Positions 1 through 44,262 of a stretch of 44,262 bases of DNA are shown here, in pieces; position 1 is the first letter of the stretch, and the number at the start of each line of letters is the position of its first letter. The stretch comes from a virus. The position numbers were made by a program, and so were the translations under genes. The notes under the pieces are model-generated. The model saw only the letters and a list, made by a program, of their open reading frames with translations, searched no databases and was not told where the DNA came from. The stretch covers positions 1 to 44,262 of the IMG/VR virus record IMGVR_UViG_3300046002_005763; one strand, given 5' to 3'.

Positions 1-126
1 CCGGCATCTACCGCGCGTTCAAGGCCGACGGCCGGTTCGTCGCCGACCGAGGCACCCAGCGCCAGGCCAGCGTCGACCAGAACCTGGCCAAGGTGCAGGA
101 GCTGTACGACACGCTCGGCCCGGCAG
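1..126. repeat. Terminal direct repeat, left copy
   Basis: These 126 bases are identical to 44134-44259. Base 127 differs from base 44260 (G against T), after which the last two bases of the window match again. Both copies lie inside the same giant coding sequence and in the same frame. This is most simply the overlap left when a circular or circularly permuted genome is assembled into a linear contig. A true terminal redundancy is possible but less likely, because phage ends seldom lie in the middle of a long gene. Confidence 0.9.
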
Positions 127-3100
127 GCATGCGCGAAACGCTGCTGCAAGAACTGACGGTGTCGGAGCTGAAGAAGAAGGCCGCGGCGCTCGGTGTTCAG
201 TTCTCCACCAGCTACAAGGCCGACGTCAAACTGCCCCTGGCCGCCGTCATCTTCGGCCCGAAGCTCGGGGCCTTCTACGCCAACCTGATGGGCGCGGACG
301 GCTACCTGACGATGGATCGCTGGTGGTCGCGGACCTTTAACCGCTACCGCGGCACCCTGCTGCAGAAACCGACCGCGCAAGGCCTGGCCCGCTTCCGCGA
401 GCTGCTGGGCCAGCCGAACCTGTCGGACGATGAGACCTTGGCCGCGACGGTCGGGCCGCGTAACACCTACGCCGCCCGGGGTTACAAGAACCCCAGCGAG
501 ATCGAGGCCGCGGCGAACACGCTCTACAAGGCCGCCTTCGAGAACATCGAGGACCAGCCGTTCAACGCCTCCGACCGCAGCTTCATGCTCGACACGGTCG
601 CGCGTGCGCGGGCCGCGCTCAAACGCCAAGGCGTCGAGATCAGTGTGGCGGATATTCAAGCCGTCCTGTGGTATTATGAGAAGCGCCTCTACGGAGAGCT
701 GGGCGCTCGTCAAACAGCGGATGTCAGTTATGAAGAAGCAGCCCAACGTGTCGTCGCTGAAGGAACCGCAGCTGCTGGAGCCCTCGGACCCGATCTGGGC
801 GGCGATTGGGAAGCTGCCGCTGAACAGTCTGACCCCGGCGCTCTCGCCTACAACCAAGGCCCCGTCGCCCGCAGCGTAGCCGAATACTTCTCCCCGGAGA
901 ACATCGGCTCGCTTTTGCAAAAGGACGATTGGTCGGTCCTGACGGCCGAGAACCCGATGGGCCAGCAGGCCACACCGGAGGCAAACGCCGCGGCCCAGGC
1001 CAAGCTGGTCGCCGATCTCGATGCGCTGGGCGTCGACTACCAGCCGTCGATTGGCCGCTACGGCCAGATCGAGAACTCGTTCGTGGTCGTTGGGGTCACC
1101 GAGCAGCAGGCGCGCGACCTCGGCCGGAAGTACGACCAGGACAGCGTGCTGACGCACAAAGGCCTGATCTACCAAGACGGCCGGATCGACGCGGCGACGG
1201 GCGTGACCGTCCACGCCACCCGCCCCGAGGACTACTTCACCGAGGTGCCCGGCACGGGCGCGCTGTTCACGGTGGACATCGACTTCGGCGAACAGACCGA
1301 AACCTTTAACCAGTCCGACCCCTTCTTCTCCGCGCTGGAGCGCGCCGTCGAGACCAGCCAGCTGACCAAGGCCTCGGCCGCGCGCGGCGGCTTCGCTCTG
1401 TTCCAGCGCAACCGCGGCCAGATCGCCTTCGGCCAGGACGTCAGCCAGACGCCGAGCGTCATCAGCCTGCTGCGCGCCGCCGACCTCTCAACTTTCATCC
1501 ACGAGACCGGGCACTTCTTCCTCGAAGCCACGGCGCACATGGCCAACCAGCCGGACGCGCCGGCTGACATCGTCGCCGACATGAGCACCGTGCTCAACTG
1601 GTTCGAGCCGGGCATGACCCAGGCCAGCTGGAACGGCATGTTGCCCGAGCAGCGTCGCCCCTATCACGAGAAATGGGCCCGCGGCTTCGAGGCCTACCAC
1701 TTCGAGGGCCGTGCCCCGAGCCTGGCCCTGCGCGATGTGTTCCGCCGCTTCTCGGCATGGCTCAAGAACGTCTACCGTTCGCTGACCGCCCTCGACGTCG
1801 AGCTGACCGACGAGGTCCGTCAGGTCATGGACCGGATGCTCGCCTCCGAAGCCGAGATCAAGGACATGGAGCAGGTCCGCGGGCTCGCGCCGGCCTTCAC
1901 CAACAAGCCCGAGTTCGCCAGCGCCGACGAGTGGGAAGAGTACCAGCGGCTGGCGGGCGACGCCACGGCCGAGGCCATCGAGCAGCTCGAGCAGCGCAGC
2001 GCGCGCGACATGCGCTGGGCATCCGGTGCCAAGGACCGCTACCTGCGGTCGCTGCAGCGCGAAGGCGAAGAGCAGCGCAAGGCTGTCCGCGCCGAGGTCA
2101 CCGCCGAAGTCATGGCCGAGCCAGTCAACCGGGCGCGGAGCTTCCTGCGTCGCGGCTTGGGCGAGAACGGCGAGCCGGTCGAAGGCGCAGCGAAGCTGGA
2201 CCTGGCCACCCTCAAGTCGCTGTACCCGGCCGACGGCCCCTGGACCCAGCTGCGCCGGGGCGGCAAGTACGGGGAGGTCAGCACCGACGGCCTGCACCCC
2301 GACGCCGTCGCCAGCATGTTCGGCTACCCCAACGGCGAAGCCCTGATCGAAGACCTGGTCAACGGCGAAGACAGCGCCGACAAGATCAAGGGCCTGACCG
2401 ACCAGCGCATGCTCGAACGCTACGGCGACCTGTCCGACGCGCAGTCCATCGAGCGCGCCGCCAACGAGGCCGTCGCCAACGAGGCGCGTGGCAAGTTCGT
2501 CGCCGCCGAGATGGCGATGGCCGACAAGGCCATCGGCAAGAAGTCGATCCTGAACAGCGCCGCCAAGGAGTTCGCGGCCCAGGTCGTCAACCGGCTGGAG
2601 CTGAAGCGGCTGCGGCCGGCGCAGTACCTGGCCGCCCAAGGCCGCGCCGCCAAGGCCGCCGAGAAGGCGCTGAAGGCCGACGACCTGCCCGCCTTCGCCA
2701 CGGCCAAGCGCAACCAGCTGGTCAACCTGCACACCGGCCGCGCCGTGCAGCAGGCCCAAAAGGACGTCGAGAAGACGATGCGGTTGTTCACGCGGATCGT
2801 GAGCGCCAAGGACGACAGCATCTCGAAGTCGCGCAACATGGACCTGGTCAACGCTGCTCGCGCGGTGCTGGCCTCCTACGGCGTCGGCCGCGTCAAGAAC
2901 GATCCGGCTGGCTACATGAAGGCCCTGTCGCAATACGACCCGACGCTCTACGCCGACATCGAGCCCTTCGTGAACGGTGCCAGGGGCGACGCCAAGCCCG
3001 TGGTCGATCTGACCTACGAACAGTTCACCGCGCTGCGCGACACCGTCAACCAGCTCTGGGTTCTGTCGCGTCGCACCAAGCAGATCGAGATCGACGGCAA

Positions 3101-5264
3101 GCTCATAGACCGCGAGGTGGTCACCACCGAGCTGGGCCTGCGCCTCGACACCCTCGGCATCCCCGCCCAGGCCGGCGTCGACCGCGCGCCGACGGATCGC
3201 GACAACCGCGTCCGCGACCTGCTCGGCGCTCGCGCCGCGCTGCGCCGCGTGGAGAGCTGGGCCCGGGGCACCGACGGTGCGAACTCGGGGCCGTTCCGCA
3301 AGTACATCTGGAACCCGATCTCGGTCGCCGCCGACGCCTACCGCGCCGAGAGCGGCGTCTACATCCGCCGTTTCCGCGAGCTGCTCGACGGCATGCGCGC
3401 CGAGCTGAAGCCCGGCGACATCAAGGCCCCCGAGATCGGATACACCTTCGGCGGCAAGTCGGAGTTGTTCCACGCCCTGTTGCACACCGGCAACGGCTCT
3501 AACAAGTCCAAGCTCCTGCTCGGCCGGGGCTGGGGCAAGAAGAACGCCGACGGCTCGCTCGACGACAGCCGCTGGCAGTCGTTCGTCGACCGCCTGCACA
3601 CCGAAGGCGTCCTGACGCAGAAGGACTGGACCTTCGTGCAGGCCGTCTGGGACTTGCTGGAAGAGACCAAGCCCGGCGCGCAGAAAGCTCACCGCGCGAT
3701 CTACGGCCGGTACTTCGACGAGGTCAGCGCCGACCCGGTCGACACCCCTTTCGGCCAGCTGCGCGGCGGCTACGTCCCTGCGATGACCGACGGCTTCCTG
3801 GTTCAGGACGCCGCTCTGCGCGCCGAGCAGGAGGCCATCGAAGGCGGCGACAGCGCCATGTTCCCGGCGGCCTCGAACGGCTTCACCAAGTCGCGCGTCG
3901 AGGACTACACCCGCGAGCTGGCGCTGGACCTGCGCCTGCTGCCGATGCACATCGACAAGGTGCTGAAGTTCACGCACCTGGGCCCGCCCGTCCGCGACGT
4001 GGCCCGCATCCTGAAAGACCGGGGCTTCTCCAAGAAGCTGCAGGCCTACGACCCGACGGCCCAGACCGACCTGCTGCTGCCTTGGCTGCAGCGCGCCGCC
4101 AAGCAGCTGGTCGAGACCCCGTCGAAGGGCCGCGCCGGCAAGGTGTCCGACCGCTTCTTCAGCTCCGTGCGCAGCCGCGTCGGCATGCAGCTCATGTTCG
4201 CCAACGTCGTGAACACGGCGCAGCAGGTCACCGGCTTCTCGAACGTGCTGCTGCGCGTCAAGGCTCCGATCCTGGGCGACGCGCTGTGGCGCTACGTCCG
4301 CGACCCCAAGGGCGTCGCCGAAGCCGCGGCCAGCCAGTCGGTCTTCCTGACCAACCGCATGTCCTCGGACATCTTCGAGGCCCGCCAGACCATCGCGCAG
4401 CTCACCAAGCTGGACCCGTCCAAGACCGGCGAGGCTGTGGCCTTCCTGCAACGCAACGCCTACTTCATGCAGTCGGCGCTGCAGAACGTCATGGACGTCG
4501 TCAGCTGGACCGCCGCCTTCAACCAGGCCGTGGGCAAAGGCGAGAGCGACCGCGACGCCGCGCGCTTCGCCGACAGCGTGATCCGGGAGACCCAAGGCAC
4601 GATGGCCCCGGAGGATGTCTCGCGCTTCGAGACGGGCCCGGCGTTCATCCGGGTGTTCACGCAGTTCGCCGGCTACTTCAACATGATGGCGAACCTGAAC
4701 GCCACCGAGGTGCAGCTGGTCGCCCGCGACGTCGGCCTGCGCAAAGGTGCCGGCCGTCTGTTCTACGTCTACCTGATGGGCTTCGCGGTGCCCGCCCTGA
4801 TCGGCGACGCCATCGCCAAGGCGCTGCGCGGCGGTTGGGAAGACGAAGAGGGCGACGGCTATCTCGACGACATGTTCGCGTGGTTCTTCTCGTCGCAGGC
4901 CAAGTTCGCTCTGGCCGCCGTGCCGGTGGCGGGCCAGGCCGCCAACGCAGCAATGGGGGCCTTCACCAAGCTGCCCTACGATGACCGCATCTCAATGTCG
5001 CCGGCCGTGTCGGTGATCGAGAGCGGCCTCGGCACGCCGGCCGAGGTCTACCAGAGCATCGTCGACGGCGAGAGCTTCAACCGCGCCGACACGCGCGACG
5101 CTCTGAACCTGCTCGGCGTCCTGACCGGCTTGCCCATCGGCGCGCTGGCCAAGCCCGTCGGCTATGGCGTCGGCGTCGCGCAAGGCGACATCGCGCCGAC
5201 CAGCCCTCTGGACGCGGCGCGCGGCGTGGTCACAGGCGCGCCGTCGCCCGAGAGCCGGCAGTAA
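1..5264 (+). CDS. Giant virion polyvalent protein, C-terminal part (continues from 41235)
   Basis: This is the 3' portion of a gene that begins at 41235 and crosses the window ends; joined, it encodes about 2720 residues. The reading frame is open from base 3 (codon phase matches 41235 because the offset of 44133 is divisible by 3). Position 1500-1514 encodes HETGH, within STFIHETGHFFLE, a zinc metallopeptidase motif at about residue 1467 of the joined protein. Further on are long charged helical stretches, a segment TPFGQLRGGYVPA (about 3745-3780), and a hydrophobic segment YLMGFAVPALIGDAI (about 4771-4815) that may cross a membrane. Very large multidomain proteins of this kind follow the internal virion genes in many podoviruses. 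They are thought to be packaged and ejected with the DNA, with enzymatic domains acting on the cell. The gene is complete at its 3' end and lies 62 bases before the tailspike gene. Enzymatic function is inferred from the motif only. Confidence 0.85.
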   Translation, partial: GIYRAFKADGRFVADRGTQRQASVDQNLAKVQELYDTLGPAGMRETLLQELTVSELKKKAAALGVQFSTSYKADVKLPLAAVIFGPKLGAFYANLMGADGYLTMDRWWSRTFNRYRGTLLQKPTAQGLARFRELLGQPNLSDDETLAATVGPRNTYAARGYKNPSEIEAAANTLYKAAFENIEDQPFNASDRSFMLDTVARARAALKRQGVEISVADIQAVLWYYEKRLYGELGARQTADVSYEEAAQRVVAEGTAAAGALGPDLGGDWEAAAEQSDPGALAYNQGPVARSVAEYFSPENIGSLLQKDDWSVLTAENPMGQQATPEANAAAQAKLVADLDALGVDYQPSIGRYGQIENSFVVVGVTEQQARDLGRKYDQDSVLTHKGLIYQDGRIDAATGVTVHATRPEDYFTEVPGTGALFTVDIDFGEQTETFNQSDPFFSALERAVETSQLTKASAARGGFALFQRNRGQIAFGQDVSQTPSVISLLRAADLSTFIHETGHFFLEATAHMANQPDAPADIVADMSTVLNWFEPGMTQASWNGMLPEQRRPYHEKWARGFEAYHFEGRAPSLALRDVFRRFSAWLKNVYRSLTALDVELTDEVRQVMDRMLASEAEIKDMEQVRGLAPAFTNKPEFASADEWEEYQRLAGDATAEAIEQLEQRSARDMRWASGAKDRYLRSLQREGEEQRKAVRAEVTAEVMAEPVNRARSFLRRGLGENGEPVEGAAKLDLATLKSLYPADGPWTQLRRGGKYGEVSTDGLHPDAVASMFGYPNGEALIEDLVNGEDSADKIKGLTDQRMLERYGDLSDAQSIERAANEAVANEARGKFVAAEMAMADKAIGKKSILNSAAKEFAAQVVNRLELKRLRPAQYLAAQGRAAKAAEKALKADDLPAFATAKRNQLVNLHTGRAVQQAQKDVEKTMRLFTRIVSAKDDSISKSRNMDLVNAARAVLASYGVGRVKNDPAGYMKALSQYDPTLYADIEPFVNGARGDAKPVVDLTYEQFTALRDTVNQLWVLSRRTKQIEIDGKLIDREVVTTELGLRLDTLGIPAQAGVDRAPTDRDNRVRDLLGARAALRRVESWARGTDGANSGPFRKYIWNPISVAADAYRAESGVYIRRFRELLDGMRAELKPGDIKAPEIGYTFGGKSELFHALLHTGNGSNKSKLLLGRGWGKKNADGSLDDSRWQSFVDRLHTEGVLTQKDWTFVQAVWDLLEETKPGAQKAHRAIYGRYFDEVSADPVDTPFGQLRGGYVPAMTDGFLVQDAALRAEQEAIEGGDSAMFPAASNGFTKSRVEDYTRELALDLRLLPMHIDKVLKFTHLGPPVRDVARILKDRGFSKKLQAYDPTAQTDLLLPWLQRAAKQLVETPSKGRAGKVSDRFFSSVRSRVGMQLMFANVVNTAQQVTGFSNVLLRVKAPILGDALWRYVRDPKGVAEAAASQSVFLTNRMSSDIFEARQTIAQLTKLDPSKTGEAVAFLQRNAYFMQSALQNVMDVVSWTAAFNQAVGKGESDRDAARFADSVIRETQGTMAPEDVSRFETGPAFIRVFTQFAGYFNMMANLNATEVQLVARDVGLRKGAGRLFYVYLMGFAVPALIGDAIAKALRGGWEDEEGDGYLDDMFAWFFSSQAKFALAAVPVAGQAANAAMGAFTKLPYDDRISMSPAVSVIESGLGTPAEVYQSIVDGESFNRADTRDALNLLGVLTGLPIGALAKPVGYGVGVAQGDIAPTSPLDAARGVVTGAPSPESRQ

Positions 5265-5267
5265 TCG

Positions 5268-5299
5268 GTATGTCTAAGGCCCGACCCCGCCTCTAGGAT
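5268..5299 (+). promoter_or_regulatory. Putative late promoter copy 1 (before tailspike)
   Basis: The site reads GTATGTCT (5268-5275), 17 bases, then C and TAGGAT (5294-5299). It lies in the 62-base gap between the giant gene and the tailspike gene, and the predicted transcript start would be about 20 bases before the TTG start at 5327. Four more sites with the same layout precede other late genes. The promoter role is inferred from repetition, position and spacing. Confidence 0.7.
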
Positions 5300-5326
5300 C
5301 GCGCCCGTCCTTCGGAGCTTTTAATC

Positions 5327-8149
5327 TTGGCCATCTCCTCGAGCACCCGCAAGGCCGGGCCTTTCCTCGGCAATGACGCGACCACGGTTTTCCCGTTCGC
5401 GTTCAAGGTCTTCACCACTGCCGACCTGCTGGTCGTCAACACCAGCTCGCTCGGGGTCGAGAGCGACCTGGTGATCGACGTTGACTACACGGTCACGCTG
5501 AACTCCGACCAGGACAATGACCCCGGCGGGTCCGTCACCCTCACCGACGCGCTGCCGACCGGCGAGCGCCTGACGGTCACGTCCGACGTTGCCGCGCTGC
5601 AGCCCTTGGTGCTGACGAACAACGGCGGCTTCTACCCGCGCGTCATCAACGACGCCTTCGACAAGATCACCATCATCGCGCAGCAGCTTATCGAACAGGT
5701 CGGCCGCTCACTGAAGCTGCCCATCAGCTCGACGGCCAGCGCCACCCTGCCTGACCCGGTGGCCAACCGCCTGATCGCCTGGAACTCCAGCGCCAACGGC
5801 TTCACCAACGTCGACCCGGCGTCCATCGCCACCGTCGCCGCCTACGCCGACGCCAACCTCGAGCTGTTCGACGGCAACGGGACGCAGACCGCCTTCACCC
5901 TCGCCGAAGACCCGGCCGTGCTGGCCAACCTCGACGTGTCGATCAGCGGCGTGACCCAGGTCGGCGGCGAAGACTTCACCTGGATCGGCACCACGCTGAC
6001 CTTCCTGGTCGCGCCGCCCAACGGCACCCGCATCCAGGTCCGCTACACCCGCGCCATTCCGCCGGCAGACCTGGCCGCCGCTGTCGCCGCCGCCGAAGCT
6101 GACCGCGTCGCCACCGCGGCTGACCGGGTGCAGACGGGGCTTGACCGTGTCGCCACCGCGGCTGACGTGGTGTCGGCCGAGGCGGATCGGGTGGCCACCG
6201 CCGCCGACCGCGTGCAGACCGGCCTGGACGCTGTCGCTACCGCCGCCGACCGCGCGCAAACCGGGCTCGACCGCGTGCAGACCGGCGCGGACGTTGCGAC
6301 CGCCTCGTCCATTCTCGCGAGCCGCCAGCCGCTCGACGCAGACCTGACCGCCATTGCCGCGCTGACCTCGGCCGCCGACAAGATGCCCTACGCCACCGGG
6401 GCGCAGACATGGGCGCTGGCGGACCTGACTGCGGCTGGCCGGGCGCTGCTGGATGACGCGGATGCGGCGGCGCAGCGGGCCACGCTCGGAGCAAACCTTG
6501 CTGCCAACGTGAACCTTGCTGTTGACGGCCAACGCGCCGTTCGCACCGTTCAAAACAAGCTCCGCGAGACATACAGCCTGCTGGACTATCTGACGGGTAG
6601 CGAACTCCCTAGCGACGCGGGGATGGGTAACACGCTTTGGGGTCGTTTCCTGACCGACGTGGCGGGCCAAAGCCGCGCCTTGACGCTTCACATCCCGTCC
6701 GCGACCTATAGCCATGAAGCTACGGTTACGTTGCCGTTTGGTATTGGCCTGACGGTCATTTGTGACAACGGCTTGCAAGGTGCGCGACTGGCTGCGGGAG
6801 TAGGATTGGATGGCCTGCCGATGTTTACAACTACGGTTGGCACCATGAACCGCTTTAACTGGACAGGTGGCACTGTTATTGGCGGCGGCCTCGCGTCTCA
6901 TTTTATGGAGTTTGAGAGCGTCAAGCACTCCACGTTTAATGAAATCGTGGTCGCTGGAACGACTGAATACGCGATTAGAGCGAATGATGGTTACGCTAAC
7001 CGTTTCCGCAATCTGGAGCTATTTACCAACGCTGGTGGTGGGCTTGATCTGTCAGGCGTCAATCTCAACAACATCAATCTGGAAGGGTGCCGTATCTATT
7101 CAAACGACGGGATTGGCGTTCTGTTGGGGAGTGGGTGGGGGATTACCCTGGATGGATGTTTGATTGAAGGAAACAAGGTCGCGGGCGTTATCGCCTATGC
7201 TTTGCGGGGCCTGAAAATCAACGGCGGATATTTCGAGCGCAACGCCTCCGTAGGCCGCGCCTATACAACGGCAGGCGGTTCGCCAGAGAACGTGACAATC
7301 AAGGCAGATATTCACCTTCTCTGCGACGGAAACAAAATCTCCTACGACGACGCCACTCTCGGGGTTCTCGGGGCGGTGATCGACGGCGTGAGCTTCACGC
7401 CCTACGGAACGGGCGACGTGCCAACCGCTGGCTTAAGCCAGGATTGCATCGTGTTCGCTACCTCAATGGACAATCTGCGGATTACGAATAACGACATCGT
7501 GCAGACCAACAAGGTCAGCGGGTTCCTCGGGACGTATAACCAGAACACCGACGCCCGGTGCAACTCGGTCGTGCTTGAGCAAAACACCCGGAACGACATT
7601 GTGTTGCTGGGTGGGCCATCTGGAAAAACCATTGCAGGCATTCACAACCTATCTAACCGTGACGAAAAAAACGCAAACAACTATGCGCCACAGACGCTTG
7701 GCAGCTACTCCGTTCTTGCAGGCTCGACCGGCACGTTTACGGACAACGGAACTGATTACGGGCCGTTTACGGTATTCAAACTGACTGCTGGCGACGCGCT
7801 GTGGGGCGCAGCGTTAGACCTGAACACTTATCCAGAGCTGCAAAACAAACATATCTGGTTTGGTTTCGATTACCGCGTTCAAGACGCAAGCACGACTGTT
7901 CGGGTTCAGTTGGGGGGAACTGGCATTCCAGGCGGGACGCGGCAGAGCATTGACGATGTAGAGGCCGTAACTGCAACGGGCGTCTGGAACACAAAAAGCG
8001 TTCTGGCAAAAACGGGCGGGGCGGGAACGACGGTATTTTTCTCTTTTAGTGCCATCGGGTCCGCTACTACGGGCCTTCTTCTTACGTGCCCCCGGATTTG
8101 CGTTGTTGGCGTAAATGGCCCCGACGCTGCTCGTGGCACTAGGGTTTAA
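5327..8149 (+). CDS. Tailspike / tail fibre with beta-helix receptor domain
   Basis: The 940-residue product is an adsorption protein. Residues 1 to about 130 resemble the T7 tail-fibre N-terminal domain that docks fibres to the tail ([14 protein letters not shown] and similar). A small beta domain follows (about 185-245), then heptad-like repeats of the type [14 protein letters not shown] (about 255-325), and a typical fibre linker ([20 protein letters not shown]). From about residue 400 to 760 the pattern of short Asn/Gly-rich turns suggests a right-handed parallel beta-helix, as in depolymerase tailspikes. The last 170 residues look like a beta-sandwich. The start is TTG at 5327 with GGAG nine bases upstream. 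Base composition falls clearly from about 6500 on, so the receptor-binding half looks acquired by recombination. The sugar target cannot be told from the sequence. Confidence 0.88.
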
Positions 8150-10467: not shown

Positions 10468-10776
10468 TCAGATCAAGCCCAGCGCCGACAGATAGAGATC
10501 GAGGATCGCCTCTTCCTCTTGGCGCTTGGCCTTGTCCATCTTGCTGATGCGAAGCACCTTGCGCAGGGTCTTCACGTCATAGCCCTCGCCCTTGGCCTCG
10601 GCGAAGACCTCCTTCATGTCGGCCACCACGGCGGCCTTGTCCTCGTCGAGCCGCTCGAGGCGCTCGATGATGCCGCGCAGGCGGCCCTGCGCGTTGTCGT
10701 TCAGCACGTCGGCGGGGTCGGTGTCGAAGTATGCGTCGTCGGCGGGGTCGGTGTCGAAGTATGCGTCGTCGGTCAT
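10468..10776 (-). CDS. GapR-like DUF2312 nucleoid-associated protein
   Basis: The 102-residue product ends in a domain very like alphaproteobacterial GapR (DUF2312): IIERLERLDEDKAAVVADMK, EVFAEAKGEGYDVKTLRKVL, and RQEEEAILDLYLSALG. GapR clamps overtwisted DNA and aids topoisomerases ahead of forks and RNA polymerase. In a phage it could support replication or alter host chromosome organisation. The first 23 residues are an acidic extension with a perfect 10-residue tandem duplication (DDAYFDTDPA twice). The ATG overlaps the helicase stop (ATGA). It is the last gene of the leftward operon. Confidence 0.88.
   Translation of the reverse strand: MTDDAYFDTDPADDAYFDTDPADVLNDNAQGRLRGIIERLERLDEDKAAVVADMKEVFAEAKGEGYDVKTLRKVLRISKMDKAKRQEEEAILDLYLSALGLI
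10711..10770. repeat. 30-base perfect tandem repeat in the gapR-like gene
   Basis: Two adjacent identical 30-base units (10711-10740 and 10741-10770) encode the duplicated acidic decapeptide at the N-terminus of the GapR-like protein. The frame is kept. The identity of the copies, including third bases, suggests a recent duplication by slippage. Confidence 0.95.
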
Positions 10777-31136: not shown

Positions 31137-32339
31137 ATGGGTTTGACCTTCGCCCCTCCCGACGACCTCAAACCCGAATGGGCCAGCGACATACAATGGC
31201 GGGCCGCAGAGGCGGTCAGAGAGCACGGTAGCACCCGCGCCGCCGCCGAGGCCTTGGGCATGTCCAAGTCCGCGGTGTGGGAAGCCCTGACCCGCTACAA
31301 CAAGGAGGCGGCCCGCCACGGCCGCGCGCCTGGCCACTTCAATGACGGCGTTGCCCCCGGCTATCGCATGGGCAAGGTCACGATCCAGCGCGGGCCCGCC
31401 GGCGTGGAGCGTGTCTGGGAACGCCAGTCGCCCGATGCGGAAGCCCAGGCCGAACGGCTGCAGGCTATGCGCGCCGAGTTGTGCGCCCCGATGCCGCCCC
31501 TCGCCCCTAGCTGCGTGCCCGGCTACGCCGACGACGACCTTCTGACGGTCTACCCGCAGGGCGATCCGCACGCGGGCCTTTACTCGTGGAAGGACGAGAC
31601 CGGCCAGGCCTTCGACCTGGTCGAGTACGAGCGCGTCATGAAGGCGGCCATCGACAGGCTGGTGGCCTCTGCCCCGCCCTCAGCCCACGCCCTCTTCATC
31701 GACCTGGGCGACACGCTGCATGCAGACAACAACGCCAGCCGCACCAAGAGCGGACACCATCTCGACACCCACGGCCGGCACGCCGAGGTCGTTCGCGCGG
31801 TCATCCGCTGCAAACGCCACCACATCGCCCGCATGCTCGAGAAGCACCGGCACGTCACCGTGCGGATCAACCCCGGCAACCACGACGGCATCACCGCCGT
31901 CATGCTCGCCGAGATGATGGCTCTGCTCTACGAGAACGAGCCCAGGATCACGGTCGTCACCAGCCCCAACCCCTACTGGTTCTTCGGCTTCGGCACCAAC
32001 CTGATCGGCACCACCCACGGCGACGGAGCGAAGGGCGCGAACCTGCCCTTGCTGATGGCCGTCGACGCCCCCGACCTGTGGCAGGCCTCGCAGCACGGGC
32101 ACCGCGTCTGGTTCGTCGGCCACGTCCACCACAAGGACATCAAGGACCACCCAGGTGTGACGGTCGAATACGTTCGCACCCTCGCCGCCCCCGACATCTG
32201 GTCCCACGGCGCGGGCTACAGGTCGAAGCGGTCGATGGAAGCGGTGACCTACCACCGCGAGGATGGCGAGGACGAGAGGCACACCTGCAATATGGCCAAG
32301 CTCGCCCGCAGTATGTCTTCCGTTCCGCGCGCGACGTAG
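31137..32339 (+). CDS. Metallophosphoesterase with N-terminal helix-turn-helix
   Basis: The 400-residue product carries a helix-turn-helix-like region at about 25-60 (STRAAAEALGMSKSAVWEAL) and a calcineurin-type phosphoesterase domain: GDPHAGLYSW, FIDLGDTLHADN (about 184-195), NPGNHDG (about 244-250) and VGHVHHKD (about 326-333), the metal ligands of the family. Similar genes lie in the head cluster of other podoviruses. The substrate is unknown; nucleic acid or nucleotide phosphates are likely. Its last codons overlap a putative late promoter. Confidence 0.88.
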   Translation: MGLTFAPPDDLKPEWASDIQWRAAEAVREHGSTRAAAEALGMSKSAVWEALTRYNKEAARHGRAPGHFNDGVAPGYRMGKVTIQRGPAGVERVWERQSPDAEAQAERLQAMRAELCAPMPPLAPSCVPGYADDDLLTVYPQGDPHAGLYSWKDETGQAFDLVEYERVMKAAIDRLVASAPPSAHALFIDLGDTLHADNNASRTKSGHHLDTHGRHAEVVRAVIRCKRHHIARMLEKHRHVTVRINPGNHDGITAVMLAEMMALLYENEPRITVVTSPNPYWFFGFGTNLIGTTHGDGAKGANLPLLMAVDAPDLWQASQHGHRVWFVGHVHHKDIKDHPGVTVEYVRTLAAPDIWSHGAGYRSKRSMEAVTYHREDGEDERHTCNMAKLARSMSSVPRAT

Positions 32340-37951: not shown

Positions 37952-38423
37952 GGTGCGCTTCGCCCGGGTCGGGGACGCCGACACCATCACGCCGAACCTG
38001 CGCCCCTCCGACCACGACGAGCTGGTCGCCGCCTCGGGCCCCGATGTGCTCGGCCAACTGCGCGAGGCGGTCGAGCTGTCGCACGGCAGGCTGGGCCCGA
38101 TGTCCTTTGTCGCGGAGCACCAAGGCGAGATCGTCGCGCTCTTCGGCTTCGTGCCGGCGGCGGCTCTGTCCAACACCGCCTACCCGTGGCTGGTCGGGAC
38201 GCCCGGCCTGGGCCGCGTGCCCCGTATGTTAAACCGGCTCTCTCGCTCCTACTGTGGCGTGGTGCTGGCCGAATACCCCCTTCTGTTCAACCACGTCGAC
38301 GCTCGCAACACGACGAGCATCTCCTGGCTGAAGAGGCTGGGGTTCAAGATCAGCGAAGCCAAACCCTTCGGTGTCGAAGGCCTCCCCTTCCACCGCTTTG
38401 AGATGCGAGGCCCCCTTGTGTAA
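37941..38423 (+). CDS. GNAT-like internal core protein (gp13-type)
   Basis: The 160-residue product looks like an acetyltransferase-fold protein: MSFVAEHQGEIVALFGFVPA (about 54-73) and NTTSISWLKRLGFKISEA (about 123-140), as in T7 gp13-like proteins encoded before the internal virion genes. TTG 37941 has GGAG seven bases upstream and overlaps the nozzle stop; GTG 37953 is possible. It may assist assembly of the internal core. A putative late promoter lies inside it. Confidence 0.75.
   Translation: MPVEVRFARVGDADTITPNLRPSDHDELVAASGPDVLGQLREAVELSHGRLGPMSFVAEHQGEIVALFGFVPAAALSNTAYPWLVGTPGLGRVPRMLNRLSRSYCGVVLAEYPLLFNHVDARNTTSISWLKRLGFKISEAKPFGVEGLPFHRFEMRGPLV
38224..38255 (+). promoter_or_regulatory. 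Putative late promoter copy 5 (before internal virion genes)
   Basis: GTATGTTA (38224-38231), 17 bases, then C and TACTGT (38250-38255). It is the most divergent copy and lies inside the GNAT-like gene about 160 bases before the internal virion genes. The spacing matches the other four exactly. Confidence 0.6.
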
Positions 38424-39042
38424 CCCCGCAGCCAGCATGGCCCTCCAGGGCGTAGGCGCGGCGACCTCGGCCATCGGTGCCTACGGTTCGGCCAAGTCCC
38501 AGAAGAGCGCGCTCGGCTTCCAAGCCCAGATGGCCGACATGAACGCGGAGCTGGCAGAGCGCCGCGCGCAGATCGCGTTGGACCAGGGGGCCTACCAAGC
38601 ACAAGAGATCGAACGCGGCGGTGCCCGGCAGAAGGGCACGCAGCGAGCAGAGATGGGCGCGAGCGGCATCGCCCTCGGCAGCACCACCGCCCAAGCCATC
38701 GTGGTCGGCACCGACCTGGTCACCGCCGAGGACGCGCAGCAGGCGCGGGTCAACGCCGTGCGCGCGGCCTGGGGCCAGCGCACCGAGGCGACCAACATGC
38801 GCAACGAGGGCCTCGCCGCCCGCGCCAACGCCCGGGGCATCAACCCGATGGGTGCCGCGGCGACCAGCCTTCTGGGCAGCGCCACGAGCATGGCGCAGAG
38901 CGCCTACAGCATGGGCATGTTCAAGGGCAACGGAGCCGTCAAGACCGGCGGCGCGACCGGGGCGATGAAGCCCTCGTCGGGCTCGGGTTTCCGCGGCGGC
39001 CGTGACCGGCCGATGTCCCGCTTCGGGGGCTTCGGGGGCTGA
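38416..39042 (+). CDS. Internal virion protein, gp14-like
   Basis: The 208-residue product starts at TTG 38416 (MCNPAASMALQGVGAATSAI), with GAGG five bases upstream; the MC-P start is common in this family. It has a hydrophobic N-terminal segment, a long helical region (DMNAELAERRAQIALDQGAY, GTQRAEMGASGIALGSTTAQ) and a Gly/Arg-rich end. It corresponds to the smallest T7-type core protein, which is ejected into the cell envelope at infection. Confidence 0.82.
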   Translation: MCNPAASMALQGVGAATSAIGAYGSAKSQKSALGFQAQMADMNAELAERRAQIALDQGAYQAQEIERGGARQKGTQRAEMGASGIALGSTTAQAIVVGTDLVTAEDAQQARVNAVRAAWGQRTEATNMRNEGLAARANARGINPMGAAATSLLGSATSMAQSAYSMGMFKGNGAVKTGGATGAMKPSSGSGFRGGRDRPMSRFGGFGG

Positions 39043-41228
39043 TGGCCAACCTTCGTATCGACGACCAGCGTCGCGTTGCCCCGGGCCAAGCCCCGGGCCA
39101 GTTCGACGCGCCTGACGCCTCGCGCGGCGCGGAGTTCGCCTCCCGCCAGATGCAGCAGACGGGCCAGGCCTTGTCGCAGGCCGGCCAGGCCGTCGGCGCG
39201 ATCTACCGCGCAGAGGTCGAGAAGCAAAACGAGACCCGGGTCAACGACGCGCTAAACCGCGCGCAGGCGGCGGCGCAGCAAGACCAAACCGAATGGAGCC
39301 AGCTGCGCGGCGAAGCGGCCATCGCCGTCGGCGAGAACCGCGAGCCGGTCGACCAGGTCTACGCTCCGCGCTTCGAGCGCCGGGTCAACGACATCGCCGA
39401 CGAGCTGCAGCTCACCGCGGAGCAGCGCCAGCAGTACCAGGCTCGCGTTGCGCCCCTCGCCCTGCGCGTGCGCGGCAGCCTGACCGAGCACTTTGTCCTC
39501 GAGAACGAGACCTACCAGGAGCAGGTCTACACGAGCGGCGTCGCCACCGCGCAAGAGGTGATCCGCGCGAACCCCGGCGACGCGGAGTTGGTGCGGCTCA
39601 ACACCCAACGCATCGCAGAGTTGACCGACGCCGAGAGCCGCCGCCGCGGACTGCCGGCCGCTGCCGCCGTGATCGCCAACCGCACCAACGTCGGCAAGGC
39701 GCTGTCCGATGTCGTCAAAGACCTGGCCGACGAAGACGTCGATGCCGCGCAGGCCTTCTTCGACGCCAACTACGAGGACATGACCGCCGACCAGCGAGAC
39801 AGCGCACGCACGGTCCTGCGCCCCGCCATCGAAGCGCGCACCGCAGAGCAGGTCGCCGACATGTTCGGCCCTCGCCTGGGCGGCACCGTCGCGGCCCCGG
39901 GCGGCGCGTCCAGCTTCGATCAGTCGATGGGCTCCATCTGGCAGTCCGAGGGCACGGCTCTGGTGGCCGAAGACAACGGTGCCGGCCGCGCGCGTTTCGG
40001 CATCACCGAACGCTCGCACCCGGCCGCGTGGGCTGATGGTGACGTGACCAGGGAAGAGGCCAACGCGATCTACCGGCGCGACTATTGGGACGCCATCGGT
40101 GCGGACGAGCTGCCCGCCGGCATGGCGCACATGGCTTTCGACACCGCGGTCAACATGGGTGCCGGCCGCGCCCGCCAACTGTTGGCCCAGGCCGGCGGCG
40201 ACGTGACCAAGTTCGCCCAACTTCGCCGCGCAGAATACCGCCGCATCGCTGCTGAAGACCCCGACGGCTCCAGCCGCCAGTACCTGGCCGGATGGCTGGA
40301 GCGCACCGACAAGGTCGAAATGGAGGCCCGCGGCCAAGCCCCGGCTGGGCCCGCCCGCGCCCCGGAGATGTCGGTGTCGCAGGCTGTCGCCGCCGCGCGC
40401 GCAGCTCTGCCCCTCGGCGCGCCGCCGACTCTGGTCCGCGCCACCGAGGCCGAGGTCCGCCGGCGCTACGCCGAGTTCAACCAAGCCGAAGCTCAAGGCT
40501 TCGAGGAAGCCGACACCGAAGCCTTCCGCCACATCGAAACCAACCGCACCATGCCCGGGGCCGACATCATCGCGCGCCTCAAGCCCGGCCGCTTGGAGAC
40601 GATCCGCAACTATTTCGAGGCGGTCACCGCCCCGCCGACCGTGCGCAGCGATCCGACGATCCTGATGGCCATCGCCGCCAACCCGCAGGCCATCACCGAG
40701 ATGTCCCCGGAAGAGATCGTCGCCACCTACGGACGCAACCTGTCGTCCAACGACCTCATCAGCCTGATTGGCACCTCGGCCCGGGCCAGCACCGCCGCGG
40801 TGGCCGAAGCCCAGAAGGCCACCGTTGTCCCGCAGCAAGCGTTCTCGTCGGCCTGGTCCGCGTCGCTCGACGCCTCGGGCATCGACCGCACGCCAGCGGG
40901 CCGCACCGCCGACAGCGACCGGCAGGCCCTGGCGCAGATCAACGCCGCCGTGCGCGAAGAAGTCGTCGAGCGCCAGCGCACCCTTGGCCGCCAGATGAAC
41001 CGCGAAGAGATCGCCGCGGTCATCGAAAACCGTTTGGGCAGGCTTGCCTGGGAGCGCCCGCAGGGTATGCTGCAGCCCTACGCCACCGGCTTCCAGACAT
41101 CCTACGAAACGATGATCCGCCCGAACCAGCTCGAGTACCGGCGGCTTGCCCGCGAACGTCTTGGTCGCAACCCGACCAACGACGAAATCTTCCAAGAATA
41201 CGTCACCACCCGCATCCGAGGAAACTAG
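39042..41228 (+). CDS. Internal virion protein with GH108-like muramidase domain
   Basis: The 728-residue product has a Gln/Ala-rich helical N-terminal part, then at about 290-390 a domain resembling GH108 muramidases: IWQSEGTALVAEDNGAGRAR, RFGITERSHPAAW, AIYRRDYWDAIGADELPAGM and FDTAVNMGAGRARQLLAQAG, with the likely catalytic Glu in QSEG. The rest is helical. It probably opens peptidoglycan locally during DNA entry. It overlaps the preceding gene by one base (TGATG). Confidence 0.85.
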   Translation: MANLRIDDQRRVAPGQAPGQFDAPDASRGAEFASRQMQQTGQALSQAGQAVGAIYRAEVEKQNETRVNDALNRAQAAAQQDQTEWSQLRGEAAIAVGENREPVDQVYAPRFERRVNDIADELQLTAEQRQQYQARVAPLALRVRGSLTEHFVLENETYQEQVYTSGVATAQEVIRANPGDAELVRLNTQRIAELTDAESRRRGLPAAAAVIANRTNVGKALSDVVKDLADEDVDAAQAFFDANYEDMTADQRDSARTVLRPAIEARTAEQVADMFGPRLGGTVAAPGGASSFDQSMGSIWQSEGTALVAEDNGAGRARFGITERSHPAAWADGDVTREEANAIYRRDYWDAIGADELPAGMAHMAFDTAVNMGAGRARQLLAQAGGDVTKFAQLRRAEYRRIAAEDPDGSSRQYLAGWLERTDKVEMEARGQAPAGPARAPEMSVSQAVAAARAALPLGAPPTLVRATEAEVRRRYAEFNQAEAQGFEEADTEAFRHIETNRTMPGADIIARLKPGRLETIRNYFEAVTAPPTVRSDPTILMAIAANPQAITEMSPEEIVATYGRNLSSNDLISLIGTSARASTAAVAEAQKATVVPQQAFSSAWSASLDASGIDRTPAGRTADSDRQALAQINAAVREEVVERQRTLGRQMNREEIAAVIENRLGRLAWERPQGMLQPYATGFQTSYETMIRPNQLEYRRLARERLGRNPTNDEIFQEYVTTRIRGN

Positions 41229-41234
41229 GCGCGC

Positions 41235-44200
41235 ATGGCTCTCGAAGACCAAGACCCCGCCGACGAACTCGAAGCGCAACGCCAGCGCCTGGCCAACGCC
41301 CTGCGGACGGGCGTCGTCGAGAACCCCGATGCGCTGGCCGCCGACCGCGCCGAAGCCGCGCGCCGGGGCATGCCGGTTTCGCGCCTGCGCGCCATCCGCG
41401 AAGTCAACGGCGCGTTGCCGCCTGTCGACTACACCACCGACCTGCCGGAACGCGCGCCGGCCACCAGCGCCTTCCTCGCGAACCCGGCCAACGCCGCCGT
41501 CGCGCACGACGACATCGAGAACCTGACGGGGCTCGAGCGTATCGTCGCCCGGGGCTTCTACACCCCCGAGCAGACCCGCCAGCTCGTAGACCAAACCGCC
41601 GCCCGCAACGCACGCGAGCAGGGCCAGTCGGCGGCTCGCACGCCTCTGGGCCGCTTCATCGAGCGCCAAGGCCCGGCGGGCCGTGCTGTCGCCAACGTGT
41701 TCCGCGGGGCCAGCGAAGGGGCCAGCCGGATCGCGGGCGGCCTGGCGCGAACGGACCAGACCCTGTTCGGCGGGATCGAAGACTTCGCCCGCCGGCAATA
41801 CGACCGGGTCGGCATCCCCATCTACGACTTCCGGCCAGATGAACAAGGGCGCTTCAGCCTCCAGCGCGTTGAGCCTGCCGCCAACGGCACTACCCGCACG
41901 GGCCAGATGACCCGCGCGCTGGAGACCCCCGCGCTCGGTTACGAGGCGGGGACGACCTGGGAAGAGGTGAAGGCCCGGCCGCTCCAGAACGTCATCCCCT
42001 TCGCTATCGAGAGCGGGCTTGTTTCCCTGCCCGACATGGCGGTGGCGATGGCCTCTGTGCCTCTGTACGTCGCGGCCAGGACAGGCGGCATTGGGCAGGA
42101 CCGCGCCGAGAACGACGCGCGCGCCGACGCCACCGTGGGCGATCTTTTTGCTGCGCTGCCCGCCGCAACGGCATCCGCGCTTCTCGAGCGGCTCGGCACC
42201 TCGGGCATCCTCGGCGTCGGCGAAGAGCTGGCGAGCGCCACCCTGCGCGGTGTTGCCACGGCCTCGGGCCGCGCGGGCCTGATCGAAGGCGTCACCGAGG
42301 CGGTGCAGAGCTTCGTCGAGTACCTCGGCACCAACCTCGGCACCCAGGCAGGCTTCAACCCGGTCGACGCTCTTGACCAAGTGGCGGCGGGTGCTGTCGC
42401 GGGTACGCCATTCGGCGCGGGCGTGCGCGCAGTTACGGCTACGGGCGAGATCGTTGCCGGCCGTTTGGCGGGGCGCGAGGCCGAAGCCGCAGGCGCGGAG
42501 CAGGCCGCCCAGACCTTCCAAGACCTGACCGACCTGTCCGCCGCGTCGCGTCTGCGCGAGCGCGAGCCTGCCACCTTCCAACAGTTCATCGAGCAGGCGA
42601 CCGAGAACGGCCCCGCCGAGAACATCTACGTCGACGCCCAGACCTTTGCCCAGAGCCTGAACGACGCGGGCGTGTCGCTCGACGAGGTGACCGCCGCGAT
42701 CCCCTCGCTGGCCGACCAGCTGCCCGGGGCTATCGCCTCCGGCGGCGACGTGCGGATCACCGCCGGTGAGTTCGCCGCGCACCTGGCCGCGACCGACGCC
42801 ACGGCGGCCCTGCTCCCGCACATGCGCACCGACCCCTTCGCCATGAGCCAGGCCCAGGCCAAGGAGTTCATGGCCACGCGCGGCGACGCGCTGCAGGCCG
42901 AAGTCGAGACCGCCGTCGCCCAAGCCACCGCCACCGAAGAGCTGCGCGCCGGCCGCGAACGCCTGCAGACCCGCATCACCGAAGAGCTGAACGCCGCCGG
43001 CCGTTTCACCAAGGACGTGAACGCCGCCTACGCCTCGCTGCCCGCCGCCTTCTACGACGTAATGGCCGCGCGCACCGGCATGACGGCCGAAGAGCTGTCG
43101 CAGAAATACCAGCTGCGCTTCTCGGCCGAGATGCCGTCGAGCGCCGGCCGCCAGGTCATGGAGCAGGAAGATAACGTCGACCTGGTCCACTACAGCAGCA
43201 CCTCGGGGCTGATGGTGTCTGACCCCTCGCGCTGGGGCGCGGCGGGCGTGACGCAGGACGCCGAGCGCGAGCGCCGCGCTGCAGGAGCGCCGGGCCGCAC
43301 CTACTTCGGCGTGCGGGGCGTCTACGACGGCGAGCCCGGCACGGGCATCAGCAACCGCTCCTTCCGCTACGAGGCCCGCATCCCGGCCTCGAAGCTCTAC
43401 GACTTCGACGGCGATCCGCAGAACCTGAAGCCCACCGAGGGCACGACCACCGAGATCGCCACAGCCTACGAGAAGGCGATCCAAGCCGCCGGCTTCAGCG
43501 GCTACCGCAGCGACGCTTCGATCAGAGGCGCGGTCGCCCTCTTCGACGCCGCCGACATGACCCAGGTCGGGCCCGTCCGCACCACGCAAGACGCACAGCG
43601 CCTGATGGCGCGCATGCGCGAGCTGGCGCAGCAGGACCGTCTGGCGCGCCTCGCCGCGCGCACCGACCCCAACGAGAGCATCGCGACCCGCCCCGCCGAA
43701 GACTTCCGCGACCAGGCCCTGGCCGAGCTGTTCCCCGGCGGAACCTTCGCCCAGAGCGCCTCTCTGCGCGACGGTCGCGAGACGCTGCAGAAGTACGGGC
43801 TGAACCCGAACAAACGCTACAGCACCCGCCAGGTCGCCGCCGCGCTCGAAGCCCGGCAGCGGGCCAAGTACGGGTCGATCTCGGCCAAAGATCGAAGCCC
43901 CGAAGCCGCGAAGAAGATCGCGAAGTGGATGGCCGAGGAAGTGCAGTTCGAGCTGCAGAACCCGGAGCAATCCGGGGTGGGCTGGTATTCGACCAAGTTC
44001 CAGGCCGCGCTCGACATCTTCGCCCAAGAGTTCCCCGAGCTGGCCACCGACAAGGACGCCCGCGACACCTTCACCGCGCTGATCGCCATCACCTCCGATG
44101 GCCAGAAGGTTGTGCCGAACTTCCAGCAGGCCGCCGGCATCTACCGCGCGTTCAAGGCCGACGGCCGGTTCGTCGCCGACCGAGGCACCCAGCGCCAGGC

Positions 44201-44262
44201 CAGCGTCGACCAGAACCTGGCCAAGGTGCAGGAGCTGTACGACACGCTCGGCCCGGCAGTCA
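41235..44262 (+). CDS. Giant virion polyvalent protein, N-terminal part (continues at 1)
   Basis: ATG 41235 begins a frame that leaves the window at 44262 and resumes in phase at base 1, ending at 5264; joined it has about 2720 residues. The N-terminal 450 residues include Gly/Ala-rich hydrophobic stretches (LVSLPDMAVAMASVPLYVAA). Residues about 648-760 (LVHYSSTSGLMVSDPSRWG, RTYFGVRGVYDGEPG, ARIPASKLYDFDGD) resemble an ADP-ribosyltransferase-like domain of phage polyvalent proteins. From about 880 a domain runs across the window ends (VGWYSTKFQAALDIF, FTALIAITSDGQKVVPNFQQ, then GPKLGAFYANLMGADGYLTM). A metallopeptidase follows in the second part. The product is probably ejected with the DNA. 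Domain names are by pattern and not confirmed. Confidence 0.85.
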   Translation, partial: MALEDQDPADELEAQRQRLANALRTGVVENPDALAADRAEAARRGMPVSRLRAIREVNGALPPVDYTTDLPERAPATSAFLANPANAAVAHDDIENLTGLERIVARGFYTPEQTRQLVDQTAARNAREQGQSAARTPLGRFIERQGPAGRAVANVFRGASEGASRIAGGLARTDQTLFGGIEDFARRQYDRVGIPIYDFRPDEQGRFSLQRVEPAANGTTRTGQMTRALETPALGYEAGTTWEEVKARPLQNVIPFAIESGLVSLPDMAVAMASVPLYVAARTGGIGQDRAENDARADATVGDLFAALPAATASALLERLGTSGILGVGEELASATLRGVATASGRAGLIEGVTEAVQSFVEYLGTNLGTQAGFNPVDALDQVAAGAVAGTPFGAGVRAVTATGEIVAGRLAGREAEAAGAEQAAQTFQDLTDLSAASRLREREPATFQQFIEQATENGPAENIYVDAQTFAQSLNDAGVSLDEVTAAIPSLADQLPGAIASGGDVRITAGEFAAHLAATDATAALLPHMRTDPFAMSQAQAKEFMATRGDALQAEVETAVAQATATEELRAGRERLQTRITEELNAAGRFTKDVNAAYASLPAAFYDVMAARTGMTAEELSQKYQLRFSAEMPSSAGRQVMEQEDNVDLVHYSSTSGLMVSDPSRWGAAGVTQDAERERRAAGAPGRTYFGVRGVYDGEPGTGISNRSFRYEARIPASKLYDFDGDPQNLKPTEGTTTEIATAYEKAIQAAGFSGYRSDASIRGAVALFDAADMTQVGPVRTTQDAQRLMARMRELAQQDRLARLAARTDPNESIATRPAEDFRDQALAELFPGGTFAQSASLRDGRETLQKYGLNPNKRYSTRQVAAALEARQRAKYGSISAKDRSPEAAKKIAKWMAEEVQFELQNPEQSGVGWYSTKFQAALDIFAQEFPELATDKDARDTFTALIAITSDGQKVVPNFQQAAGIYRAFKADGRFVADRGTQRQASVDQNLAKVQELYDTLGPAV
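44134..44259. repeat. Terminal direct repeat, right copy
   Basis: This copy is identical to 1-126. The base after it (T 44260) differs from G 127, which would change one Gly codon to Val in the giant gene, and is probably an assembly-end error. Confidence 0.9.

Follow-up and report, generated by a model that had tools for sequence, protein, structure and literature searches.

The virus record IMGVR_UViG_3300046002_005763 of IMG/VR, whose complete stretch of 44,262 nucleotides is referred to here as the window, encodes on its plus strand a giant multi-domain protein whose gene runs across the ends of the record. These ends are directly repeated, with identity at 128 of 129 bases, and the record therefore represents a circular map, with a unit of 44,133 bases. 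Joining 41235..44133 to 1..5264 yields 8163 nt from an ATG at 41235, preceded by a GAGGA approximately 12 bases upstream, to a stop at 5264, that is, 2720 codons in which the terminal stop is the only one. The initial annotation, made by a model from the sequence alone, had given this length and a share of about 18% of the genome, and both are borne out by the frame across the junction (18.5% of the circular unit). The interval 41235-44262 to which it had assigned the protein covers residues 1-1009, and the HETGH motif and hydrophobic C-terminal segment that it also described are located in 3-5264. Both peptides it had singled out, GPKLGAFYANL and HETGH, are present, at residues 1052 and 1467, respectively. 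A gene spanning the ends of a record might also result from false circularization that fused two genes, but the relatives L003, L010, and L011, which lie on other contigs, carry the gene unbroken and in frame across the junction. The latter is therefore not an assembly artefact, and this explanation can be regarded as refuted in practice.

The architecture of the protein is modular, with a single cargo slot between the two halves of a conserved frame. According to family hidden Markov models (HMMs), the domains are arranged in the order LPD22, N-terminal scaffold (N-scaffold), cargo, HExxH domain, and C-terminal scaffold (C-scaffold). Two sets of relatives were assembled. The first comprises 61 loci recruited with the C-terminal part of the window's protein and partly selected on GPKLG peptides, so that its module frequencies are biased; the second was recruited with the C-scaffold alone to avoid a cargo-based choice, and here 80 loci were kept of 324 relatives. 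Cargo lengths were determined in 51 complete non-redundant open reading frames (ORFs) of the C-scaffold set, from which near-duplicates and ORFs cut by contig ends had been removed beforehand. In these ORFs the cargo has a median length of 683 aa (standard deviation 479, extremes 16 and 1534 aa) and the remainder of the protein measures 1937±143 aa; total length closely follows cargo length (r = 0.956), and five members contain no more than 32 aa of cargo. Three cargo modules are found in the window, an ADP-ribosyltransferase (ART)-like candidate, a domain with the GPKLG peptide, and a DUF3293 domain, and among the 51 ORFs they occur in 13, 14, and 4 members, respectively. When all loci were considered (87 non-redundant ORFs, with frequencies biased as stated), 75 of 75 matches to the three modules were located between the N-scaffold and the HExxH domain and none elsewhere. 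Within the slot the module order varies: DUF3293 follows the GPKLG module in the window, L003, L011, L012, and L014, and precedes it in L015, L044, and L045.

Judged from close relatives, cargo turnover is fast. The C-scaffold of L003 is 96% identical to that of the window, yet its protein contains approximately 500 more residues directly before the HExxH domain; L005 (C-scaffold 87% identical) is devoid of the GPKLG and DUF3293 modules, and L072 (76% identical) of all three. The additional cargo of L003 (11288-12960 of that locus) lies between the SAM-lyase-like module described below and the zincin-like HExxH domain, and had no PADLOC or further Pfam match. A Pfam scan of 32 cargo regions (E up to 0.01) retrieved ART-PolyVal in 12, DUF3293 in seven, PBECR5 and DUF3990 in four each, DUF7178 in three, and GNAT in two, as well as one each of GGDEF, RadC, LPD23, PBECR1, methyltransferase, ASCH, and PARP. 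The cargo modules are under purifying selection, with ratios of non-synonymous to synonymous substitution rates (dN/dS) of 0.07–0.21 against L003. The N-scaffold (window 41235-43154) is 55% identical to its L003 counterpart at a dN/dS of 0.62, the N-terminal part being nearer to L005 and L006 (76–77%), and this contrast to the C-scaffold identities indicates recombination inside the giant gene. In L105, approximately 830 additional residues precede LPD22 (4721-7200), which suggests that some phages have another cargo site, at the N-terminus. Several disparate domains are united in one polypeptide (LPD22, DUF3293, HExxH, and a predicted glycosylase-like fold). The initial reading as a polyvalent protein agrees with the LPD22 match (E = 8.5e-14) and with the polyvalent-type cargo families of the relatives, and the absence of any domain match, an outcome it had allowed for, did not occur, as LPD22 and DUF3293 are both recognized by Pfam.

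The third cargo module matches DUF3293 (PF11697) with 57.8 bits, above the curated cut-off of 25. The S-AdoMet lyase family PF23780 matches these residues as well, with 20.2 bits, which is below its cut-off of 28. A profile comparison by hhalign between 12 phage DUF3293 copies and nine lyases of S-adenosylmethionine (SAM) of the phage T3 type gave a score of 37.0 (E = 1.6e-5, probability 79%), compared to a maximum of 17.3 in 100 column shuffles and 12.6 for the reversed profile. Neither the domain nor its alignment retrieved a convincing match when compared to PDB sequences. The sequence modeled by AlphaFold2 was the cargo of the relative L003 and not that of the window, and in the DUF3293 part the predicted local distance difference test (pLDDT) was mostly at least 89. 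In a Foldseek search of the PDB with this model the T3 SAM lyase ranked first (probability 1.00, E = 0.018; no match reached 0.001), and VIA aligned the model with the T3 chains 8bb1_E (Z 11.8, 3.0 Å, 123 of 147 residues) and 7ock_J (Z 10.9) and with Svi3-3 (6zm9, Z 6.0). The conserved ligand-binding positions described for Svi3-3 are Gly56, Tyr58, Glu69, and Gln104, of which Glu69 is critical (PMC7877911), and all four have counterparts in the window (G1318, Y1320, E1324, and Q1346). Among the 12 aligned copies the Gly, Tyr, and Gln are retained without exception, the Glu in nine. dN/dS of the domain was 0.16 against L003 and 0.34 against L011, the two pairs compared. According to the model, the DUF3293 domain has the fold and the residues of the T3 SAM lyase, and SAM-lyase activity is predicted for it. 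None of nine genomes holding related prophages contained DUF3293, and the family is also present in 68 Flavobacterium elemo-phage records. In one of these it resides in a protein of 3694 aa with the annotation 'structural', approximately 100 residues before an HExxH motif and with an ART-like module further on; proteomic data behind the label 'structural' were not found in the open-access literature.

The GPKLGAFYANL domain, which constitutes the second cargo module, is by its sequence a divergent relative of DUF7178. Pfam matches to this family (PF23802) are weak and were obtained for 42 of 51 copies, that of L003 scoring 16.4 bits, below the cut-off of 27, and a Pfam scan of the GPKLG part of the window yielded no DUF7178 match. 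In the L003 model this part has a pLDDT mostly above 90, and VIA related it to Qng1/DUF2419 (Z 9.4, 4.2 Å, 209 residues) and AGOG (Z 7.3), although for helical folds Z values below approximately 13 can be misleading. The motif G-x-K-x17-D-x4-R-x2-[NGH]-R, in which Lys and Asp are spaced as in endonuclease III, is present in 45 of 51 GPKLG copies and in seven of eight Nth-like proteins, the latter picked by motif from 14 PF00730 loci. Locus ORFs amounting to 808,900 aa contained 57 matches to the Lys/Asp motif, all of them inside the GPKLG domain, and a shuffle contained none; the pattern had been chosen after both families had been seen. Whole-profile comparison with HhH-GPD/Nth-like proteins by hhalign was not significant (E = 0.63), a sequence search against the PDB with the GPKLG alignment gave nothing convincing, and Q_salvage (PF10343) was found in none of ten genomes, a result that carries no weight as the controls likewise remained without match. 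We consider a function as nucleobase glycosylase marginally more probable than not.

The first cargo module had initially been described as ADP-ribosyltransferase-like. It is indeed a conserved module (17 aligned sequences with eight invariant positions), but its identity as an ART was not confirmed: the window's copy had no Pfam match even at E 1, a search of the phage's own record with PF18760 found nothing, hhalign against genuine ART-PolyVal domains reached a probability of 14%, and a PDB profile search did not support the assignment. In the AlphaFold2 model this part has a pLDDT mostly under 60. Genuine ART-PolyVal domains are present in ten of 16 records of relatives.

The HExxH motif is kept in all 116 family ORFs with the domain (near-duplicates included), among them all five members with 16–32 aa of cargo. 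Because it persists in these members, the zincin is to be counted as part of the frame and not only as a cargo cutter. The metallopeptidase motif of the initial annotation is accordingly a conserved feature, and a peptidase function is predicted from it. The hydrophobic C-terminal segment, likewise recorded there, also holds up: a hydrophobic segment is present in the last 400 residues of 76 out of 80 non-redundant relatives, as compared to 0 out of 110 in a control slice, and gp16-like proteins have a similarly hydrophobic C-terminal end (PMC8954989). For the model of the C-scaffold, Foldseek found no PDB match below 0.001, and a sequence search against the PDB gave nothing convincing. Among the 50 VIA matches listed, the C-scaffold was aligned with a chain of the T7 mature core (9jyy_I, Z 6.2, 229 residues, 4.4 Å) and of the PhiM1 pre-infection ejectosome (8vb2_A, Z 5.1, 221 residues, 4.7 Å), both of which map to one shared region of the C-scaffold. 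In BFVD, 90 entries matched the C-scaffold with E no higher than 0.001, some of them named for ART, GNAT, MuF, nuclease, or LPD domains.

The giant gene forms part of a structural cassette (Table 1) with the order terminase, portal (phrog_332), exonuclease, protease, major head protein, two tail proteins, two internal virion proteins, a 728-aa endolysin-like protein, giant gene, and tail fibre. In the record of phage T3 the order is gp14, gp15, gp16, and tail fibre, and the giant gene therefore stands in the gp16 position. Homologues of the giant gene were inspected in six annotated phage records. In five of them the upstream neighbour is a lysozyme, endolysin, or lysis protein by annotation, the sixth (Limnohabitans phage DC33) being unannotated, and in three of the six the downstream neighbour bears a tail or tail-fibre annotation. 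Bacterial genomes, mainly of Pseudomonadota such as Azoarcus, Caulobacter, Janthinobacterium, Variovorax, and Massilia, contain 29 related loci. The exonuclease gene between portal and protease (31137-32339) resembles DNA-repair exonucleases (phrog_704). The tail-fibre gene contains four 42-nt tandem units at 6100-6267, with 74–79% identity to the first, and two perfect 30-nt tandem units are found at 10707-10766, in a minus-strand ORF (10468-10776) that adjoins a helicase gene.

Table 1. Features of the giant gene and its neighbours, in coordinates of the window.
Feature	Residues	Position	Strand	Basis
5' part of giant gene	1-1009	41235..44262	+	ORF; last 129 bases = end repeat
3' part of giant gene	967 to stop	1..5264	+	ORF
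LPD22 domain	22-101	41298..41537	+	Pfam PF18834, E 8.5e-14
Conserved N-scaffold	309-631	42159..43127	+	family HMM, E 2e-111
Cargo module 1, ART-like candidate	647-772	43173..43550	+	dN/dS 0.21 vs L003
Cargo module 2, first part, GPKLG/DUF7178-like	841-1217 (both parts)	43755..44133	+	conserved domain
Cargo module 2, second part, glycosylase-like fold (predicted)		1..752	+	VIA Z 9.4 Qng1, 7.3 AGOG; motif test
Candidate catalytic residue	K1054	261-263	+	motif test
Candidate catalytic residue	D1072	315-317	+	motif test
Cargo module 3, DUF3293 / SAM-lyase-like	1262-1396	885..1289	+	Pfam PF11697 E 1.7e-15, PF23780 E 6e-4; hhalign; 8bb1_E fold match
Zincin-like domain	1448-1599	1443..1898	+	HExxH in 116/116 family ORFs
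HETGH motif of zincin-like domain	from 1467	1500-1514	+
C-scaffold	1609-2712	1926..5237	+	phrog_9880, E 0; AlphaFold2 mean pLDDT 81.3
Conserved hydrophobic (candidate membrane) segment	2553-2572	4758..4817	+	Kyte-Doolittle 1.75
Two internal virion protein genes		37953..39042	+	phrog_308 and phrog_418
728-aa endolysin-like internal protein, directly upstream, gp15 position		39042..41228	+	phrog_10475, E 1e-33
Tail-fibre gene, directly downstream		5327..8149	+	tail PHROGs, e.g., phrog_1640 E 2e-22

We consider it reasonably probable that the giant protein serves as the large ejection (internal virion) protein in a podophage resembling the T7 supergroup, and that it carries swappable enzymes including a predicted lyase of SAM or of its derivative SAM-AMP. 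Entry together with the DNA, as the initial annotation had proposed, is suggested by the gp16 gene position and by the weak resemblance of the C-scaffold to the ejectosome chains of T7 and PhiM1. The frame, comprising LPD22 and the N-scaffold on one side and the HExxH domain and the C-scaffold with its membrane-prone end on the other, would be located in the head and exit with the DNA, and the C-scaffold would help to build the DNA channel after entry. ART-like, DNA/nucleoside-glycosylase-like, and SAM-lyase-like modules, held in the slot directly upstream of the protease-like domain, could thereby arrive in the cytoplasm, where they might be freed by the zincin. The lyase could then cleave SAM or a SAM-derived signal and thus weaken, ahead of phage transcription, SAM-dependent restriction, BREX, or SAM-AMP signalling. 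The first-line anti-defence role initially envisaged gains in probability through the SAM-lyase-like domain, which had been missed; ADP-ribosylation is not established here. That the ejection protein in the gp16 position provides podophages of this group with a platform for delivering proteins, with one exchangeable slot, and that in the present phage a DNA-glycosylase-like enzyme and a preformed lyase of SAM (or SAM-AMP) enter along with the DNA and strike SAM-dependent immunity ahead of the first transcript, falls somewhat short of an even chance; if true, SAM-type lyases would make up the whole DUF3293 family.

Several observations weigh against the assignment as an enzyme-carrying ejection protein. 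The structural matches of the C-scaffold are middling (Z 6.2 and 5.1), and hhalign detected no sequence similarity between it and T3 gp16 (probability 1%). The retention of the zincin in members with hardly any cargo does not fit a role as cargo releaser only, an ART identity of the first module is not supported, and in the lyase-like copies the Glu is replaced by Gln in L023, Asp in L037, and Met in L045, where a Glu is found one column earlier. Copy number poses a further difficulty. For Svi3-3, a turnover of 9.5 per second has been determined (PMC7877911). For gp16 and gp15, the notes of the phage T3 record give approximately three and 12 copies per virion, respectively. With a cellular SAM pool of 0.2 mM, a cell of 1 fL, no resynthesis, and 9.5 turnovers per second, four subunits would require approximately 3170 s to clear the pool and 500 subunits approximately 25 s, and a few injected copies are thus probably too slow for bulk SAM. 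Moreover, the known SAM lyase is a trimer with active sites between the subunits, and a few injected copies may not meet to form one. Such slow clearance implies that an injected dose can be effective only if the enzyme is much faster, acts locally, has a scarce target such as SAM-AMP, or blocks SAM synthesis, as the T3 SAMase reportedly does; otherwise the enzyme would have to act late.

Two of these options amount to explanations of their own. The lyase module might spare bulk SAM and destroy a scarce SAM-derived signal such as the SAM-AMP of type III CRISPR systems, for which few copies suffice. The copy-number arithmetic favours such a substrate, and a SAM-AMP lyase from a phage, published as a fusion to another domain, belongs to the same PII-like family (PMC12255297), but the fold match found here is to the SAM-specific T3 enzyme, and we regard this reading as unlikely. 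Unlikely, too, is an action late in the producing cell, where hundreds of copies could for instance keep progeny DNA unmethylated and the frame alone would be injected: the position of the gene in the structural cassette and the rapid clearance by 500 subunits are consistent with it, but cargo and presumed ejection frame form one polypeptide, and there would be no benefit against restriction at entry. The form of anti-defence put forward in the initial annotation, ADP-ribosylation combined with proteolysis, could draw on the genuine ART-PolyVal domains of the relatives (12 of the 32 cargo regions); with PF18760 lacking a match in the phage's own record and a module that compares weakly with real ARTs, it appears quite unlikely. 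Alternatively, the protein might be an ordinary ejection or structural protein whose inserted domains have no catalytic activity and serve as fillers or in assembly. The absence of an in-column Glu from three of 12 lyase-like copies and the minimal members that manage without cargo would fit this view, but the low dN/dS, the retained G-x-Y/Q and K/D motifs, and the many unrelated enzyme families that share one slot make it very unlikely. We retain the ejection protein with exchangeable enzymes as the best explanation.

Within the open-access literature searched, the assignment of a SAM lyase, the location of this domain in a protein that probably belongs to the virion, and the architecture with a single slot appear to be new. 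These searches returned nothing on DUF3293 or DUF7178, nothing on Bbp10 of Bordetella phage BPP-1 among the matches listed, and 'polyvalent protein' together with 'SAM lyase' only in a reference list; the available text of PMC10386132 does not mention the giant-protein family, and scans with NCBIfam and PADLOC gave nothing useful. The phage SAM lyases known so far are produced once the DNA has entered, which leaves the first moments of infection unprotected. A virion-borne lyase, if true, would close this gap in early protection. The assignment also provides the DUF3293 and DUF7178-like families with a testable function, the slot between N-scaffold and HExxH domain is a simple source for collecting uncharacterized anti-defence enzymes across hundreds of phages, and the protein could serve as a natural model for the passage of enzymes through a podophage ejection channel.

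T7 gp16, among the closest known counterparts, has 1318 aa and contains its own transglycosylase. The giant protein shares with it the place between a gp15-like protein and the tail fibre and the hydrophobic C-terminal part, and may partially resemble it in fold, but here the endolysin-like domain is encoded in a separate gene. Large polyvalent proteins, including their zincins and ARTs, are already known (Iyer et al., 2017; PMC5512222), and they resemble the protein described here in very large size, multi-domain organization, LPD22, the HExxH zincin, ART/PBECR/GNAT/RadC-type cargo in relatives, and predicted injection. The fixed frame with one cargo slot is a feature of the present family that was not seen in the text available of that study, whose main text, considered without its full tables, contains no occurrence of S-adenosylmethionine, SAMase, glycosylase, or DUF. 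Bbp10 of phage BPP-1 (phrog_9880, 'crystallin beta/gamma motif') has the same frame, with 31.7% identity over the C-terminal part, and the same gene position, but only 176 aa between N-scaffold and zincin and none of the three cargo modules. The GPKLG module may resemble Qng1 (DUF2419) and the AGOG/endonuclease III superfamily in its helical fold and has the K-x17-D-x4-R motif in common with them, although profile similarity is not significant. With the SAM-AMP lyase (PMC12255297) the DUF3293 module shares the PII-like superfamily and conserved Glu and Gln residues, and with the T3 SAM lyase gp0.3 and Svi3-3 the fold and the G-x-Y, E, and Q residues. The latter two, however, are small free proteins produced after entry, whereas the module found here forms part of a larger protein that probably belongs to the virion.

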